IMG/VR virus record: IMGVR_UViG_3300022208_000022
Span: 1-29,860 of that record
Direction: 5' to 3' (one strand)
Source of the DNA: a virus
Length of the DNA: 29,860 bases
Positions 4,426 through 29,258 of this stretch are shown piece by piece. A program made the translations under genes and the position numbers. Numbering within the stretch: position 1 is the first letter of the stretch; every line of letters begins with the position of its first letter. Under the pieces are notes generated by a model that was given only the letters and a program-made list of their open reading frames with translations, did not search any database and was not told the origin of the DNA.

Positions 4426-5340
4426 TCAAGAAATCTCAGATTCTTCAACATCTATGTCCATTTCCACTTGCATATTCGCATGCGGAAAGTTCCGATTAAA
4501 AAGCCGCATGAAAGCCCGCCAATTTGGTGCCCCGCGCATCAAAGCAGTAACAACCGCCACCTGCTTTTCGAGGTGTGGATTACCTATATTTTCCGACAAA
4601 AGCTGTGGATGACGATACTTGCGCTGCCACTTCTCATTTGGGGGGTTCTTTGTCTCAAGCTCCTCTAGAACTCCCGGAGGTAATTGCTTGTAAATGAGAT
4701 CGCGTGTAATTTTTCCTGCATAACGCGGTCCCCTTGGCCCCCTAATCTTAGCATCATCAGGATACTTCCAATTTCGCAAGCGGAACATTTCTTCATAGAA
4801 GGTGGTTGGAAATCGACGCGTCCAAGGCAAGAGTTCCGCAGAAATATAAGCCGCAAGAATAACTTGCAGTTCATCATGTGGGCGATCTTTTTGATAACCA
4901 GTGGCTTCATCAATAAGTGCGGTTAGTCCTACCTTTGCAAATGCCTTATGAAAAATGGAGGCTTGGGTTGCAATCGTCCGTTGTCGGCCTGTACGAAGCA
5001 GGCCGTTGCGCTCGGCCTCAATCATGAGTTCACATAGTTTGGTTAACGCCTCAGCTTTGAACCCGGCGATCATTTGGCCCTTGTACTTTCGCCTCACTGG
5101 CTCAAACAGGTCCCCAACATTATCGTTTTTAATCAATGAGTTAAAGAATTTTCCGGTTAAAAAACGCTTCAATCTGGTCCCCGGCCTGCCGGAACCATCC
5201 GGTGATTCTTCGACAATTTTTAGGCTCTCCTGCATTTTACGACTGGCGATCAATCTCTCGCTTTGATTCGTCACAAAGCACGGGATCGAGATAGGTCCCA
5301 ATCGCAAATGTCCAGTATGGGTAATCACCGATTCAGTCAT
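4426..5340 (-). CDS. P63C-domain protein (transposon passenger)
   Basis: This is 304 aa from ATG 5340, which has GGAGG five bases upstream. That ribosome site lies in the last codons of the transposase gene, leaving a one-base gap between stop and start, so the two are coupled. The C-terminal part carries the recognisable P63C signature: LPWTRRFPTTFYEEMFRLRN, then RYAGKITRDLIYKQLPPGVL, then ENIGNPHLEKQVAVVTALMR and a final WRAFMRLFNRNFP. P63C proteins are found on many phages and mobile elements and their biochemical role is unsettled. The N-terminal 110 residues are basic and helical. Co-transcription with the transposase suggests a function in the life of the transposon or a benefit to its carrier. 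Confidence 0.8.
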   Translation of the reverse strand: MTESVITHTGHLRLGPISIPCFVTNQSERLIASRKMQESLKIVEESPDGSGRPGTRLKRFLTGKFFNSLIKNDNVGDLFEPVRRKYKGQMIAGFKAEALTKLCELMIEAERNGLLRTGRQRTIATQASIFHKAFAKVGLTALIDEATGYQKDRPHDELQVILAAYISAELLPWTRRFPTTFYEEMFRLRNWKYPDDAKIRGPRGPRYAGKITRDLIYKQLPPGVLEELETKNPPNEKWQRKYRHPQLLSENIGNPHLEKQVAVVTALMRGAPNWRAFMRLFNRNFPHANMQVEMDIDVEESEIS

Positions 5341-5341
5341 G

Positions 5342-6196
5342 TTAGCCTCCAATGGCTTTGGCTAGCGCCAGTTCAAAAATGTCCGCATTCTTGCGGTTGT
5401 TATATCGGAAGGCGAATTCGTCAATGTACTTTTGAAGATAGGCGAGACTAACTTTATGGTATTGACCCGTAATCCCGCGTTTCAAAAGCGCCCAAAATCC
5501 TTCAATGGTGTTGGTGTGGGCGTCACCTTTTACATATTCACCAGCCGAATGATTTACGGTCTTGTGAATAGTCAAACCGGCAAGGCGGCTATACCCCTTG
5601 AATTCGTCGGTCATGATGATTGATTGTTTCAAATCTACAGACCCACGAATTAGGTTTGTAAGCCGCTTCGAGTCAAGCCATACCATCACTTTGGCTTTGA
5701 CATTGCCGTTCCGTTCTACTGCTCCAACGACTGGAGTTTTGGTAGTGCCGCGCCCGCGTTTTCGAGGCGGTCCCCCTTTCCTGGGTTTTCCACCAATGTA
5801 TGTTTCATCGACTTCTACGATTCCGCGTAGCAATTCACCGCTGTCCACAAGCGCCTTGCGAATACGCATACCCATAAACCATGCAGTGTTCTTATTGACC
5901 TCCAAGTCACGGGCAAGCTGGCGGGCACTCAGTCCCTTCTTTGCGTTTACGATTAGCGCAACAGCCAGGAACCATTTTTGAAGGTCTAACTTGCTATTGT
6001 GAAATATTGTCTGAACAGTAACTGAAAATGTCGTGTTGCAGGTATTACAATGGTGCCGCATTTCTTTCGGCATGGCCGAAGTTTTTACGGATTGGCAGTA
6101 CGGACAACGAGGAATTCCCTTCCAGCGCACCTTTTCAAGGTGCCGGATACAATCTGCGTGGCTTGGAAATTTGGCGTAGACCTGTATAATATTCAT
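5342..6196 (-). CDS. IS1595 family (ISXO2-like) transposase
   Basis: This is 284 aa, a normal length for the family. An N-terminal zinc ribbon has C31/C34 (CPYC) and C50/C53 (CNTC). It is followed by a helix-turn-helix region (GLSARQLARDLEVNKNTAW, residues about 88-106). The catalytic RNase H-like domain shows D130 in VEVDETYIGG, D197 in IMTDEFKGYS, and H227/N229/E232 in AHTNTIEGFW, as expected for IS1595 enzymes. The frame looks complete, so the element may still be active. The ATG at 6196 is immediately preceded by a 9-bp inverted repeat that can bury its ribosome site. The P63C gene follows one base after its stop. Confidence 0.93.
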   Translation of the reverse strand: MNIIQVYAKFPSHADCIRHLEKVRWKGIPRCPYCQSVKTSAMPKEMRHHCNTCNTTFSVTVQTIFHNSKLDLQKWFLAVALIVNAKKGLSARQLARDLEVNKNTAWFMGMRIRKALVDSGELLRGIVEVDETYIGGKPRKGGPPRKRGRGTTKTPVVGAVERNGNVKAKVMVWLDSKRLTNLIRGSVDLKQSIIMTDEFKGYSRLAGLTIHKTVNHSAGEYVKGDAHTNTIEGFWALLKRGITGQYHKVSLAYLQKYIDEFAFRYNNRKNADIFELALAKAIGG

Positions 6197-14509: not shown

Positions 14510-15421
14510 TTAGGCCCTTCCCAGGGCGGCGCCACCCAGGGCGCCACCCAAACTCAACAGTCCGCTAATCAAGTTGTTTTGGGCATTGGCCTTGGCGATG
14601 CCCGCCGCGGCCGCGGCATTGCCCTGCGCGGTGAGCGCGTTGGCGATGCTTTCCCCGCTTCTGGTGGAGCCGCTCATGATGCTCCCGGCCGTGTTGCCAA
14701 TTCCATTGACCATGTTTCCAATGGATGCATCCATGCTGCCGATGGTGCCAACCATGTTGGCCATGCTGGAGGCCAGGCCTGTCTTTCCGCTCACGTAACT
14801 CGCCAATGCATTTTGACCCAAGCCCGCGACGCCCAGCAGGGAGTCCACCTGGTTTTTCCAATAGGTTGACGCGAGGTCCTGGTTGAACATGGAGAGGTCT
14901 TTGGCGGCCTGACCGCTCCAGGGCGATCCGCCCGCGCCCGCCTTTGAGAGAATGCCCATCTCCCCCATTTGTTGCTGGAATTTAAACGCTGGGTCGTTGG
15001 GGTTGAATCCGCCCGCCATGAGGTTGTTGGCGCGGCGCATCGCCGCCTCACCTTCCGAGCGGTAGGCCAGGGTGTCTCGCCCAATGTCCCCGATGTAGCC
15101 CTTCACATCGCCGATGTAGCCCTTCACATCCTTGATGTTCCCCTGCACATCGCCGATGTAGCCCTTCATGTCCTTGATGTAGCCCTGGATGTCACTTCGC
15201 CCCAGGTCGAACATTTCCCGTTGGGCCGCGATGGCGCGATCCGTGGCCGCGCCCATGCCTTCCAACCCTTTATCCACCGCGCCGTTTCCGGTGCCCGCCA
15301 TGTTTTTCAACCAATTTCCACCGCCAAGTCCGCTTGCAAGGCCAAACGTGCCGGTGTTAGCGATGCTCCCCACCAAATCGCTAGCATTTTTAATCTTGTT
15401 CCAGCCGTCAAACATGCCCAT
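14510..15421 (-). CDS. DNA transfer (ejection) protein with heptad repeats
   Basis: This is 303 aa from ATG 15421 with AAGGAG six bases upstream. It begins MGMFDGWNKIKNASDLV and has a glycine-rich first 45 residues. Residues about 77-112 are five to six 7-residue units of the form GYIGDVK, encoded by 21-bp DNA repeats at 15085-15192. The C-terminal third is alanine/glycine-rich and weakly hydrophobic (NNLISGLLSLGGALGGAALG), suited to membrane insertion. Size, composition and place directly after the gp10/gp26-position genes match the small ejection proteins of P22 (gp7/gp14). It would be released into the cell envelope at infection. Confidence 0.65.
   Translation of the reverse strand: MGMFDGWNKIKNASDLVGSIANTGTFGLASGLGGGNWLKNMAGTGNGAVDKGLEGMGAATDRAIAAQREMFDLGRSDIQGYIKDMKGYIGDVQGNIKDVKGYIGDVKGYIGDIGRDTLAYRSEGEAAMRRANNLMAGGFNPNDPAFKFQQQMGEMGILSKAGAGGSPWSGQAAKDLSMFNQDLASTYWKNQVDSLLGVAGLGQNALASYVSGKTGLASSMANMVGTIGSMDASIGNMVNGIGNTAGSIMSGSTRSGESIANALTAQGNAAAAAGIAKANAQNNLISGLLSLGGALGGAALGRA
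15085..15192 (-). repeat. 21-bp tandem repeats inside the ejection gene
   Basis: There are imperfect units of about 21 bp (core GATGTAGCCCTTCACATC on the plus strand) encoding GYIGDVK-like heptads. Some units differ (GNIKDVQ). Copy number could change by slippage in steps of seven residues without shifting the frame. Confidence 0.8.
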
Positions 15422-26371: not shown

Positions 26372-27958
26372 TCATGGGTTATCCCCCCGTAAAATTTTGG
26401 GTAGCCAGCGCGTGCTTTTCAGTTCCCGCTCGGCGACCTGGGCCAACTCTGCCTTGGGGAGTTTCTTCCAGTCGCCGCCGCGCGCGGCAAAGGCCGTGGG
26501 TACGCCCGCCGCCAGCGCCTCCAGGATTTCAGACTTGTTCACCTTGCCGTAGTAGTTTTCGGCGGTGGGGGTAAACCAGTCGCGCATGTCCAGCGCAAGC
26601 GCCGCGCCTAACCGGTTTGCCTGATCCTGCACGACCGCCTCCCACTGGCCATTTTTGGCCACGGCGTCCATTGACACCGCAGCACACAACGCCAGCACTT
26701 CCAGCAGCGTTTCCGTGGATTGCGATATGCACCAGTCCCAGAGTTTTGTTTCATTAAAAATATCTGTTACGGAATCAAATTCCCCCGCGTGTTTCATTAG
26801 CGTTGAATGCCATTCCCTGCGCGCATCTCCGATTTCCTGCTCCGCCCGCGGCAGGTACGGGTTGTCGTCATCGCCCAACGAATTATCCTTGGCGGTGATC
26901 CGTAATGGGCTGCCCCGCCCTCTCAACAAGAATGCGTGTACAACCGCCGCCAGCGCGATTTCATGGCGCTTCATCAGGCATGCCGCCAACGCGGCGGTTT
27001 TATCCGTGGTCAGCGTTTGCAACAGCGCCTTGGGGAGTCCTGACGCTTTCGCCCCCGCGCCTTCCTGGGTATCGGCACAGGCACCCGCCTGGGTTTGCGC
27101 ATTCTCGGCCTTGACCGCCAGTTTCCGGTCTTCGTGACGCACCAGACCGCGCAGGATATCCGCCTTGCCGTTATAGTCGATCGTCACCACCACGCCCGCG
27201 AGCGCCTTTTGCTCCGTTGTAAATTCGGGTGTTGGGCGTTGTTTTTCGATTTCTTTAAGGCGCGCGCGAATTTTGTTTTCCTCTGCACTCACTTCGCCAT
27301 CCGCGTCTAGTTCATCCAAACGTGCGCTGAGCTCGTCGTATTCCTTTCCTAACTCCGGTGGTAGGGGTTGTTCTATTGGATAGAGCCGAATGTATTTACT
27401 GCGTTCGCCCCAGCCAAATTCTGCCCGCGCCTCACACCACTTCCACCCCTCCCCCTTGAGGCTCTTAATCGTGTGTTCGAGTTTCAAGGCCGCCAGTTCG
27501 TCCAACAACTTGGCGTCCTCGATGATGACCCCTTCGTCGCTCTCGCCCGCCGCCGCGAACAAGTCCCGCCGTACCTTTCCGCCCGCAGCCTCATATTTCT
27601 TGAGCCCCACGTATTTCACGCGCCGGTCGGTGGCGCTAATTTTGCCCTCCATGAGATGCTCCCGGATTCTCCCAGGGCTCAGGCTCAACCCCGCTCCATC
27701 TTTCAGCAGCGCCTCTTGGGCCGCGTGATCGTCCGTGATGGCGAACGCCTGCACCTGCTCCAGGTTCAATTCCTCCCTCTTCAAATTCCGCGCGCGTTCT
27801 TCAGACCCGCCGTGTTCGATCATGTAGGCCAGTTCCTCGGCGGCATCACGCAACAGAAGCGCCGCGCCCCGGCGATGATCCGGCGTGAACGACGCGAGCG
27901 AATCCCTGATGGCGTCCATGAGGATTTCCAGGCGGCGCGCTTGGTCAATGGCACTCAT
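26372..27958 (-). CDS. ParB-family protein lacking the N-terminal nuclease domain
   Basis: This is 528 aa from ATG 27958, overlapping the stop of the 78-aa gene (ATGA). From about residue 65 it follows the body of long plasmid/phage ParB-RepB-Spo0J proteins: LNLEQVQAFAITDDHAAQEA, GRIREHLMEGKISATDRRVK, YVGLKKYEAAGGKVRRDLF. The C-terminal block (WFTPTAENYYGKVNKSEILE, then LAQVAERELKSTRWLPKIL) is also typical. The usual first 100-200 residues, with the ParB/sulfiredoxin-type domain and DNA-binding helix-turn-helix, are absent. Only about 60 helical residues replace them. It therefore may not bind parS or hydrolyse CTP in the standard way. It could bind a partner or serve in replication. No ParA gene is present. 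Confidence 0.68.
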   Translation of the reverse strand: MSAIDQARRLEILMDAIRDSLASFTPDHRRGAALLLRDAAEELAYMIEHGGSEERARNLKREELNLEQVQAFAITDDHAAQEALLKDGAGLSLSPGRIREHLMEGKISATDRRVKYVGLKKYEAAGGKVRRDLFAAAGESDEGVIIEDAKLLDELAALKLEHTIKSLKGEGWKWCEARAEFGWGERSKYIRLYPIEQPLPPELGKEYDELSARLDELDADGEVSAEENKIRARLKEIEKQRPTPEFTTEQKALAGVVVTIDYNGKADILRGLVRHEDRKLAVKAENAQTQAGACADTQEGAGAKASGLPKALLQTLTTDKTAALAACLMKRHEIALAAVVHAFLLRGRGSPLRITAKDNSLGDDDNPYLPRAEQEIGDARREWHSTLMKHAGEFDSVTDIFNETKLWDWCISQSTETLLEVLALCAAVSMDAVAKNGQWEAVVQDQANRLGAALALDMRDWFTPTAENYYGKVNKSEILEALAAGVPTAFAARGGDWKKLPKAELAQVAERELKSTRWLPKILRGDNP

Positions 27959-28191
27959 TCCTCCTCCCTGTCCCCGGTGGGGATGCTCATTTCAATTCCG
28001 GTCTTCAACGCCGGCGGCGGATTGGCGGCAAGGGCTGGATAATCAACATTCCCCGGCTTTGGCTTGGGTGCTGGAGCGGGCCGCACCGATGGCGGCCCCG
28101 ATCGGCGGAGTTTTTGCGCGGCCCGCACACGGTCCACAGCGGCAACGGCTTCGGCGTAGGTATACCCGGCGGTGATGGGTCGGCGTGTCAT
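27955..28191 (-). CDS. Small protein between initiator and ParB-like genes
   Basis: This is 78 aa from ATG 28191, which overlaps the initiator stop (ATGA). The start MTRRPITAGYTYAEAVAAVD leads to a basic helix and a proline-rich linker (RPAPAPKPKPG), ending acidic (DREEE). No family is recognised. Lambda has helicase loader P in this place, but this protein is far shorter and shows no loader motif. It may be an adaptor. Confidence 0.55.
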   Translation of the reverse strand: MTRRPITAGYTYAEAVAAVDRVRAAQKLRRSGPPSVRPAPAPKPKPGNVDYPALAANPPPALKTGIEMSIPTGDREEE

Positions 28192-29258
28192 GCGGTGCCC
28201 CTCGCTGGATGTGCCGCGCACGGCGCGAAGATTTTGGCACGCACCACCGCGCGCGCCTGCACGCCCACATCCGGGAATGCCCGCCGCACCGCTTCACGCA
28301 CGGGAGCGGTGAACTGTTTTTGGATGCGATCGGCAAAGTAGGTGTTTGGCGCACAGACCACGATAAGGCCGCTTTGCACGGATTTCAGTTCCAGCGTGCG
28401 CGCCCACGCCGCCGAATCATCCCCTGGCAGGGTCTCGGCCATCGCGGCCCGCTCCAGCACCCATTCCGGCGTGTCCTCGGCCCGCGGCTCGCAGGTGCAG
28501 CGCGGTGCTACCGGAGCCGTGGCCCGTTCCTCCGTGGATTGTTTGCGTTCGTCCAGCCAGCATTGGTTTCGCAGCCACTTGTCGGGGTAGGGGATGTATT
28601 GCCCGCCGTCCCGCCGCCAGTCGCGTGATTCCCGCTGCCAGGCTAGCGCCGTCAGCATCGCCTGGACGATTTCCGAGGTTGGCTTGAGCCGCCTCCACAC
28701 TTTTTCCGCGCCCGCCTTGGCGACTTTACGCGGATACGCCACCCAGAACGCTTCAAACCCCCCCACCCCCGGCGAAGCCGGGGAAGTAGGATCTGTAGTT
28801 GAATCTGTAGTTGAATCTGTAGTTGAATCGGGTGGCGTGGTGTCACCCCTAACAGTCGAATTTGTCACCCCGCTCGCGACACCATGCCGCTCCGCTATTG
28901 ACACCGTGTCACCCCGCGCAACACGGGGCGGCAAATTGTCACCCCGATTGTCACCCCGCTCTGGTGTCGGCTTTGCGGCCCTGGGAAGCGCGGCGATGGC
29001 CTCCAAGTCAAGGCGGTACTCGGTGGGCCGGTGGTCCCCAGCGTCACGGACGGCGACGATCAACCCCCGCGCCCGGAACATTTTCAGGTGCCGCTGCACG
29101 GTGCGCGGGTTGTGGCCCGTTTTTTGGGCCAGGGTATCCACGCTTTCAAAATAGCCGCGGCCCTCATCGTTCACCCGGTTGGCCATCTGGTGCAGCGTCC
29201 ATTTTGGGCCGGGCGGCAAGGACGTGTTGTCCACAATGCTCATGACCTCAATGCTCAT
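28188..29258 (-). CDS. Replication initiator (lambda O-like role)
   Basis: This is 356 aa from ATG 29258, overlapping the previous stop (ATGA). A winged-helix domain lies at about residues 17-90: WTLHQMANRVNDEGRGYFES, then LAQKTGHNPRTVQRHLKMFR and ARGLIV. A low-complexity linker (about 97-168) has repeated RGDN/RGDT and DSTT units encoded by the iterons. Next is a helical domain, GFEAFWVAYPRKVAKAGAEK then YPDKWLRNQCWLDE, seen in phage replication proteins. The C-terminal part, LIVVCAPNTYFADRIQKQF, resembles the DnaA N-terminal-type interaction domain. It probably binds the iterons in its own gene and recruits the host replisome. Longer starts upstream lie within neighbouring genes. Confidence 0.75.
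   Translation of the reverse strand: MSIEVMSIVDNTSLPPGPKWTLHQMANRVNDEGRGYFESVDTLAQKTGHNPRTVQRHLKMFRARGLIVAVRDAGDHRPTEYRLDLEAIAALPRAAKPTPERGDNRGDNLPPRVARGDTVSIAERHGVASGVTNSTVRGDTTPPDSTTDSTTDSTTDPTSPASPGVGGFEAFWVAYPRKVAKAGAEKVWRRLKPTSEIVQAMLTALAWQRESRDWRRDGGQYIPYPDKWLRNQCWLDERKQSTEERATAPVAPRCTCEPRAEDTPEWVLERAAMAETLPGDDSAAWARTLELKSVQSGLIVVCAPNTYFADRIQKQFTAPVREAVRRAFPDVGVQARAVVRAKIFAPCAAHPARGTA
28767..28783. other. Hairpin next to the origin repeats
   Basis: CCCCGGC (28767-28773) and GCCGGGG (28777-28783) form a perfect 7-bp stem with a GAA loop, 9 bp from the 12-mer repeats. Within the coding strand it lies in the Pro/Ser/Gly linker of the initiator. Confidence 0.5.
28793..28828. repeat. Three perfect 12-bp repeats, candidate unwinding element
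   Basis: CTGTAGTTGAAT occurs three times head to tail (28793-28804, 28805-28816, 28817-28828). It is AT-richer than the surrounding gene and encodes the DSTT repeats. Position next to the iterons fits the AT-rich 12/13-mers that melt first in many replication origins. Confidence 0.6.
28841..28957. repeat. Iterons: five copies of TGTCACCCC in the initiator gene (candidate ori)
   Basis: Exact copies lie at 28841-28849, 28863-28871, 28907-28915, 28937-28945 and 28949-28957, all in the same orientation. Most are followed by G. Repeated sites inside the linker of the initiator gene are the arrangement of lambda ori in gene O. The spacing is uneven (22, 44, 30, 12 bp). Confidence 0.7.

Follow-up and report, generated by a model that had tools for sequence, protein, structure and literature searches.

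Where does a phage of an uncultured bacterium begin to copy its DNA, and how might it reach the replicative helicase of its host? Origins lying within initiator genes are classical in lambda. The window, by which we mean the whole 29,860-nt stretch of DNA analysed, is an entire contig of a 2.79-Mb genome that is 97% complete and belongs to a small phylum (the phylum-level comparison set comprised 51 further genomes). It appears to represent a temperate phage with a start site within its own initiator gene, at 28767-28957, where the original prediction had placed five iterons, three AT-rich 12-mers and a 7-bp hairpin.

The phage genome and its initiator gene

The two ends of the contig (1-136 and 29725-29860) are identical at 134 of 136 bases, and this 136-bp overlap makes it probable that the phage genome is circular or has terminal redundancy. 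Genes of temperate type are present (an integrase, a CI-like repressor and a CII-like gene), together with a P22-like head set of portal (phrog_156), coat (phrog_283), scaffold and the head closure protein Hc3. When the sequence is read across the contig joint, the CII-like gene is followed by the initiator gene, both on the minus strand, which is the order found in the right operon of lambda. Searches of viral and genome collections with the initiator, the portal and a neighbour gene found no close relatives of the phage, the initiator yielding a single viral locus, which is distant, the portal two contigs that encode it and the neighbour gene nothing. Elsewhere in the window, an IS1595-type transposase gene (5342-6196) adjoins a gene for a P63C-domain protein (4426-5352). 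The GC content of this stretch, 4426-6196, is 47-48% as opposed to about 60% or more in other parts, and it has the look of an insertion that carries a passenger gene. Also, a 42-bp tandem array at 15092-15187 encodes a repetitive segment of a DNA-ejection-like protein (phrog_598).

The initiator gene (28188-29258, minus strand, ATG at 29258) is an open reading frame for a 356-amino acid protein that consists, from N- to C-terminus, of a winged helix-turn-helix (HTH), an origin-coding linker, a domain with the motif FWxAYP and a tail resembling domain I of DnaA. The profile of PHROG_270, a family of phage replication initiation proteins, covers residues 7-266 and takes in the first three of these parts (E 2.6e-31). 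The winged HTH, presumed to be the iteron-binding domain, is encoded at 29058-29219 on the minus strand and matches HTH_36 (E 4.9e-7). In an AlphaFold2 model built on an alignment of viral relatives, it is predicted with a pLDDT of about 95. Among PDB structures the modelled domain comes closest to 5kbj, a complex of a plasmid Rep with DNA (E 0.05, probability 1.00), a resemblance that is suggestive only. The FWxAYP...WLNxxRW domain (28551-28757, minus strand; pLDDT about 96) is conserved and common to many phage initiators, and a search for its relatives in the PDB gave none that was convincing. Between these two folded domains, linker residues about 90-163 are predicted to be disordered, and it is to this linker that the origin-coding DNA maps in the model.

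The original prediction had likened the locus to lambda O and its origin. The design, carried by different sequences, does recur here, whereas kinship with the lambda O protein family does not. The Pfam family Phage_rep_O (PF04492, the N-terminal domain) gave no match to the initiator at E values up to 0.1 and readily detected the controls lambda O (6e-36) and P22 18 (7e-38), and membership in that family was rejected on this ground. PHROG families of O-like proteins match the initiator weakly (phrog_391, 1e-8). Similarly, RepA_N (PF06970) has no Pfam match in the initiator, and the resemblance to it is confined to the fold of the winged HTH. At 29228-29257, the initiator start is present twice (MSIEV/MSIVD) as a 15-bp direct repeat, and this repeat overlaps TTGTCCACA, which is one mismatch off a DnaA box; a search for DnaA-box clusters found none above chance.

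Repeated DNA in the linker-coding region

All of the predicted elements were located within 28767-28957, in the linker-coding part of the initiator gene. The iteron TGTCACCCC occurs in five exact copies, all on the plus strand, at 28841-28849, 28863-28871, 28907-28915, 28937-28945 and 28949-28957, with spacings of 22, 44, 30 and 12 bp. A dinucleotide shuffle of the 3.2-kb locus around the initiator gene gives an expectation of 0.04 copies. Furthermore, TGTCACCCC is the sole 9-mer with five copies in 117 nt, the maximum in the remaining window being four. A chance origin of the repeats was considered and rejected. The iterons, at 9-10 bp, differ from those of lambda, which are 19-bp imperfect inverted repeats; no such inverted repeat was found here, and the flanks of the five aligned copies are not consistently palindromic.

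Four of the five iterons are read as CGG/AGG GGT GAC A, specifying RGDT (28841 and 28907) or RGDN (28937 and 28949), and the copy at 28863 lies in a different frame (GGG GTG ACA) and specifies SGVT. When the iteron-coding peptide was recoded synonymously according to the codon usage of the phage itself, four or more copies of GGGGTGACA arose in none of 200,000 recodings, and no 9-mer of any kind reached five copies in 20,000. The iterons are thus not explained by the protein, because one is out of frame and recoding never gave four copies. These observations show that the repeats are under constraint at the level of DNA, and they support the suggestion that the DNA sites shape the linker rather than the reverse.

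Adjoining the iterons on their 3′ side are the tandem 12-mers ATCTGTAGTTGA (28791-28829; 3.2 copies, 100% matches), the presumed unwinding element. This tract is 33% GC, which ranks it among the bottom 1% of the window's 39-mers, and its duplex stability is low (z -2.04). The 12-mers encode DSTT, and three identical copies appear in about 6e-4 of synonymous recodings; their identity could also be explained by recent tandem duplication. The hairpin at 28767-28783 (CCCCGGC-GAA-GCCGGGG) has a fold z of -3.4 for its 17 nt and is ordinary when taken alone, as 12 perfect 7-bp arms with loops of 3-4 nt are present across the window. We rejected it as a terminator, given that no T-run follows it on either strand. 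Read in the sense of the gene, the order is iterons, low-stability 12-mers and hairpin.

Layout in relatives and known systems

Searches with the initiator over the host family, order and phylum gave matches that, outside the window, were confined to DnaA tails, and no relative with the same linker was found. A probe for the FWxAYP domain listed 80 viral loci of at least 588, of which 56 formed a dereplicated set. The N-terminal domains of these relatives vary (HTH_36, DUF6291, DUF1376 and DnaD_N); initiators of PHROG_270, PHROG_9474 and PHROG_9327, the type found in Pseudomonas JBD68, share both the winged HTH and the FWxAYP domain with this phage.

The 234-nt stretch preceding the FWxAYP motif holds three or more copies of some 8-mer in 36 of 78 relatives, compared with 0.77% of other windows, and about half of the relatives are without exact 8-mer repeats. 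Among the dereplicated relatives, 24 of 56 carry a 9-mer at least three times in the linker, versus 6 of 3103 other windows (0.19%), and synonymous recoding of the same 56 leads to an expectation of 0.76. The repeat test also picks out its two positive controls, lambda O and P22 gene 18. At a point 90 nt before the motif, the mean duplex-stability z is -1.62 in the relatives (-2.04 in this phage), and 12 of 56 relatives have hairpins against a background of 6.8%. The repeat sequences are unlike from phage to phage and the layout is kept. Statistics now show the intragenic-origin design throughout a family of initiators that is both large and divergent, and since the sites differ while their position and the unwinding dip persist, a scan of linkers could locate origins in uncultured phages. 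In the 3′ half of many of the relatives' linkers there are dipeptide runs (ESES, TETE, DTDT, PTPT and SQSQ). These runs derive from different tandem hexamers at one location, which suggests an unwinding element that is free in its codon choice.

The same architecture is seen in established systems. In both lambda O with ori-lambda and P22 gene 18, the central part of the initiator gene contains iterons and an AT-rich tract, and in P22 a GC hairpin follows this tract, reproducing the order observed here. Lambda and Stx phages are known parallels for an intragenic origin (PMC7466680), and repABC and other listed plasmids also have internal origins (PMC3155836). In the Rep protein of the staphylococcal plasmid pSK41, a RepA_N protein, the Rep boxes lie centrally in rep and encode a dispensable linker, and a host-specific, DnaD-like C-terminal domain contacts DnaG of the host replisome (PMC5703833). 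The phage initiator resembles this Rep in its winged HTH N-terminus, its sites inside the gene, its linker and its possession of a C-terminal domain; it differs in that its tail is like DnaA domain I rather than the DnaG-binding, DnaD-like domain, and in its lack of a Pfam match to RepA_N. A lambda/P22-type origin inside the initiator gene, as originally predicted, is well supported by the PHROG family assignment and by the layout in lambda, P22 and the relatives, and it adds one more case to a known type.

We consider it probable that 28767-28957 is an origin that works together with both ends of the initiator. Specifically, we infer that the winged HTH would bind the five iterons, that the resulting complex would melt the neighbouring 12-mers and that the DnaA domain I-like tail would recruit the host replicative helicase DnaB onto the melted DNA, taking the role that lambda assigns to a separate protein, P.

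Other accounts of the repeats have to be set against this. They might be operator or partition sites through which the winged HTH protein autoregulates or segregates the genome, with replication beginning elsewhere. Iterons can indeed serve copy control and partition too, and the GC skew of the window is uninformative, with no clear switch. However, PHROG assigns the protein as a replication initiator, the repeats lie inside the gene and away from its promoter, and they flank a low-stability element that is placed as in the origins of lambda and P22 and as the dip of the relatives. This makes a purely regulatory or segregational role improbable. It is less probable still that the repeats reflect nothing but a low-complexity linker of RGD and DSTT units that arose by tandem duplication. 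Such an account draws on the frequent low complexity of linkers, on the RGD[NT] encoded by four of the five iterons and on the DSTT encoded by the 12-mers, yet it leaves the out-of-frame iteron, the failure of 200,000 recodings to give four copies and the excess of repeats in the relatives (24 observed, 0.76 expected) without explanation. The iterons of lambda likewise occupy several frames, and protein low complexity alone was rejected.

A DnaA domain I-like tail

DnaA domain I normally docks the replicative helicase in the host. The tail of the initiator, residues 264-335 (28251-28466, minus strand), matches the N-terminal domain of DnaA. In phmmer comparisons with the host family, the initiator matches the DnaA N-termini of three genomes (E 2.8e-8, 1.8e-6 and 3.1e-6). 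A profile of five host-family DnaA domains I detects the initiator at E 9.1e-14, with the next open reading frame at 0.49, and gives it 49.1 bits, compared with 6.4 bits for the best of 5,000 shuffles. When a six-sequence profile was run against the PDB, DnaA domain I structures led (4tps at 2.5e-6, 8btg and 2e0g); between 2e0g and a fourth DnaA ranked a single unrelated chain, 4lzi (0.0094). A Foldseek search with a low-confidence, single-sequence model of the tail (pLDDT 53) had DnaA domain I chains in five of its top six places and a DciA in the other. The Pfam family DnaA_N scores 18.0-18.6 bits on the tail, under its gathering cut-off of 24.6. Judged by these comparisons, the C-terminus of the initiator is homologous to DnaA domain I.

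The residues of E. coli DnaA domain I with assigned roles are W6 in dimerisation, E21 and F46 in DnaB binding, and W25 and N44 in DiaA binding (PMC5448010). The tail has W, D, W, N and Y where E. coli has W6, E21, W25, N44 and F46; the positions predicted to contact DnaB are kept in kind, E21 being replaced by D and F46 by Y. The host encodes one DnaB. An alternative role for the tail would be to dimerise the initiator, or to compete for the partners of host DnaA and thereby shut down host initiation. In E. coli, dimerisation and DiaA binding are further functions of domain I, which is also the target of YfdR, a protein of a cryptic prophage (PMC5448010). Against this, the tail belongs to a protein presumed to bind the origin, the phage has no loader that was recognised, and the DnaB-contact positions appear to be preserved. 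We judge a non-docking role to be unlikely, although less so than either alternative for the repeats. A helicase-docking tail would suggest a direct route by which the phage, lacking a recognised loader, recruits the helicase of its host, and a molecular basis for the host specificity of initiator tails.

This tail, which did not figure in the original prediction and is missing from lambda O and P22 gp18, is a more unusual part of the system than the internal origin. DnaA_N tails occur in none of the 56 dereplicated FWxAYP viral relatives, and searches of phages and viral contigs for the tail itself, using sequences of the window or host family, found none. Fecal phage matches to domain I were rejected as tails, being full-length or near-full-length DnaA, as was an Acinetobacter match that lies in a chromosomal dnaA-dnaN-recF region. 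A literature search found no paper on a DnaA tail in phage initiators, which is weak evidence, since subscription papers lay mostly outside the search.

The arrangement is not wholly new. Gene product 4 of Brevibacillus phage Jenst (667-1710) has the same two ends, HTH_36 and a C-terminal DnaA_N (1.8e-9), and between them its gene holds four copies of TCAAAATCTG in two frames. In design, Jenst is a cultivable cousin of the phage initiator. Initiators of Bacillales plasmids, annotated as DnaA N-terminal domain-containing, also combine a winged HTH N-terminus with a C-terminal DnaA domain I, and exact internal repeats were found in none of the seven such genes checked. These initiators and that of Jenst differ from ours in that no FWxAYP domain is seen and their domain I resembles that of B. 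subtilis DnaA. In a small tree of 14 short sequences, the clade of host-family DnaAs includes domain I of the window (support 0.977), and that of Jenst groups with B. subtilis (support 0.845). Because the two group with different DnaAs, the simplest reading is that of two separate captures, which we hold with moderate confidence. More generally, and as a tentative though plausible proposal, initiators of phages and plasmids whose origins are internal may have acquired, repeatedly and independently, domain I from the DnaA of their own host. It would serve them as a host-matching, helicase-docking adaptor in place of a separate loader such as lambda P, this phage and Jenst being examples.

Lambda relies on P, and P22 encodes a DnaB-like helicase of its own downstream of the initiator, whereas the scanned proteins of the window include no recognised helicase or loader. 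Downstream of the initiator lies a 528-amino acid gene (26372-27958, minus strand) that matches phrog_7783 (E 7.8e-56). It is a candidate replication partner, and its product could be a loader.
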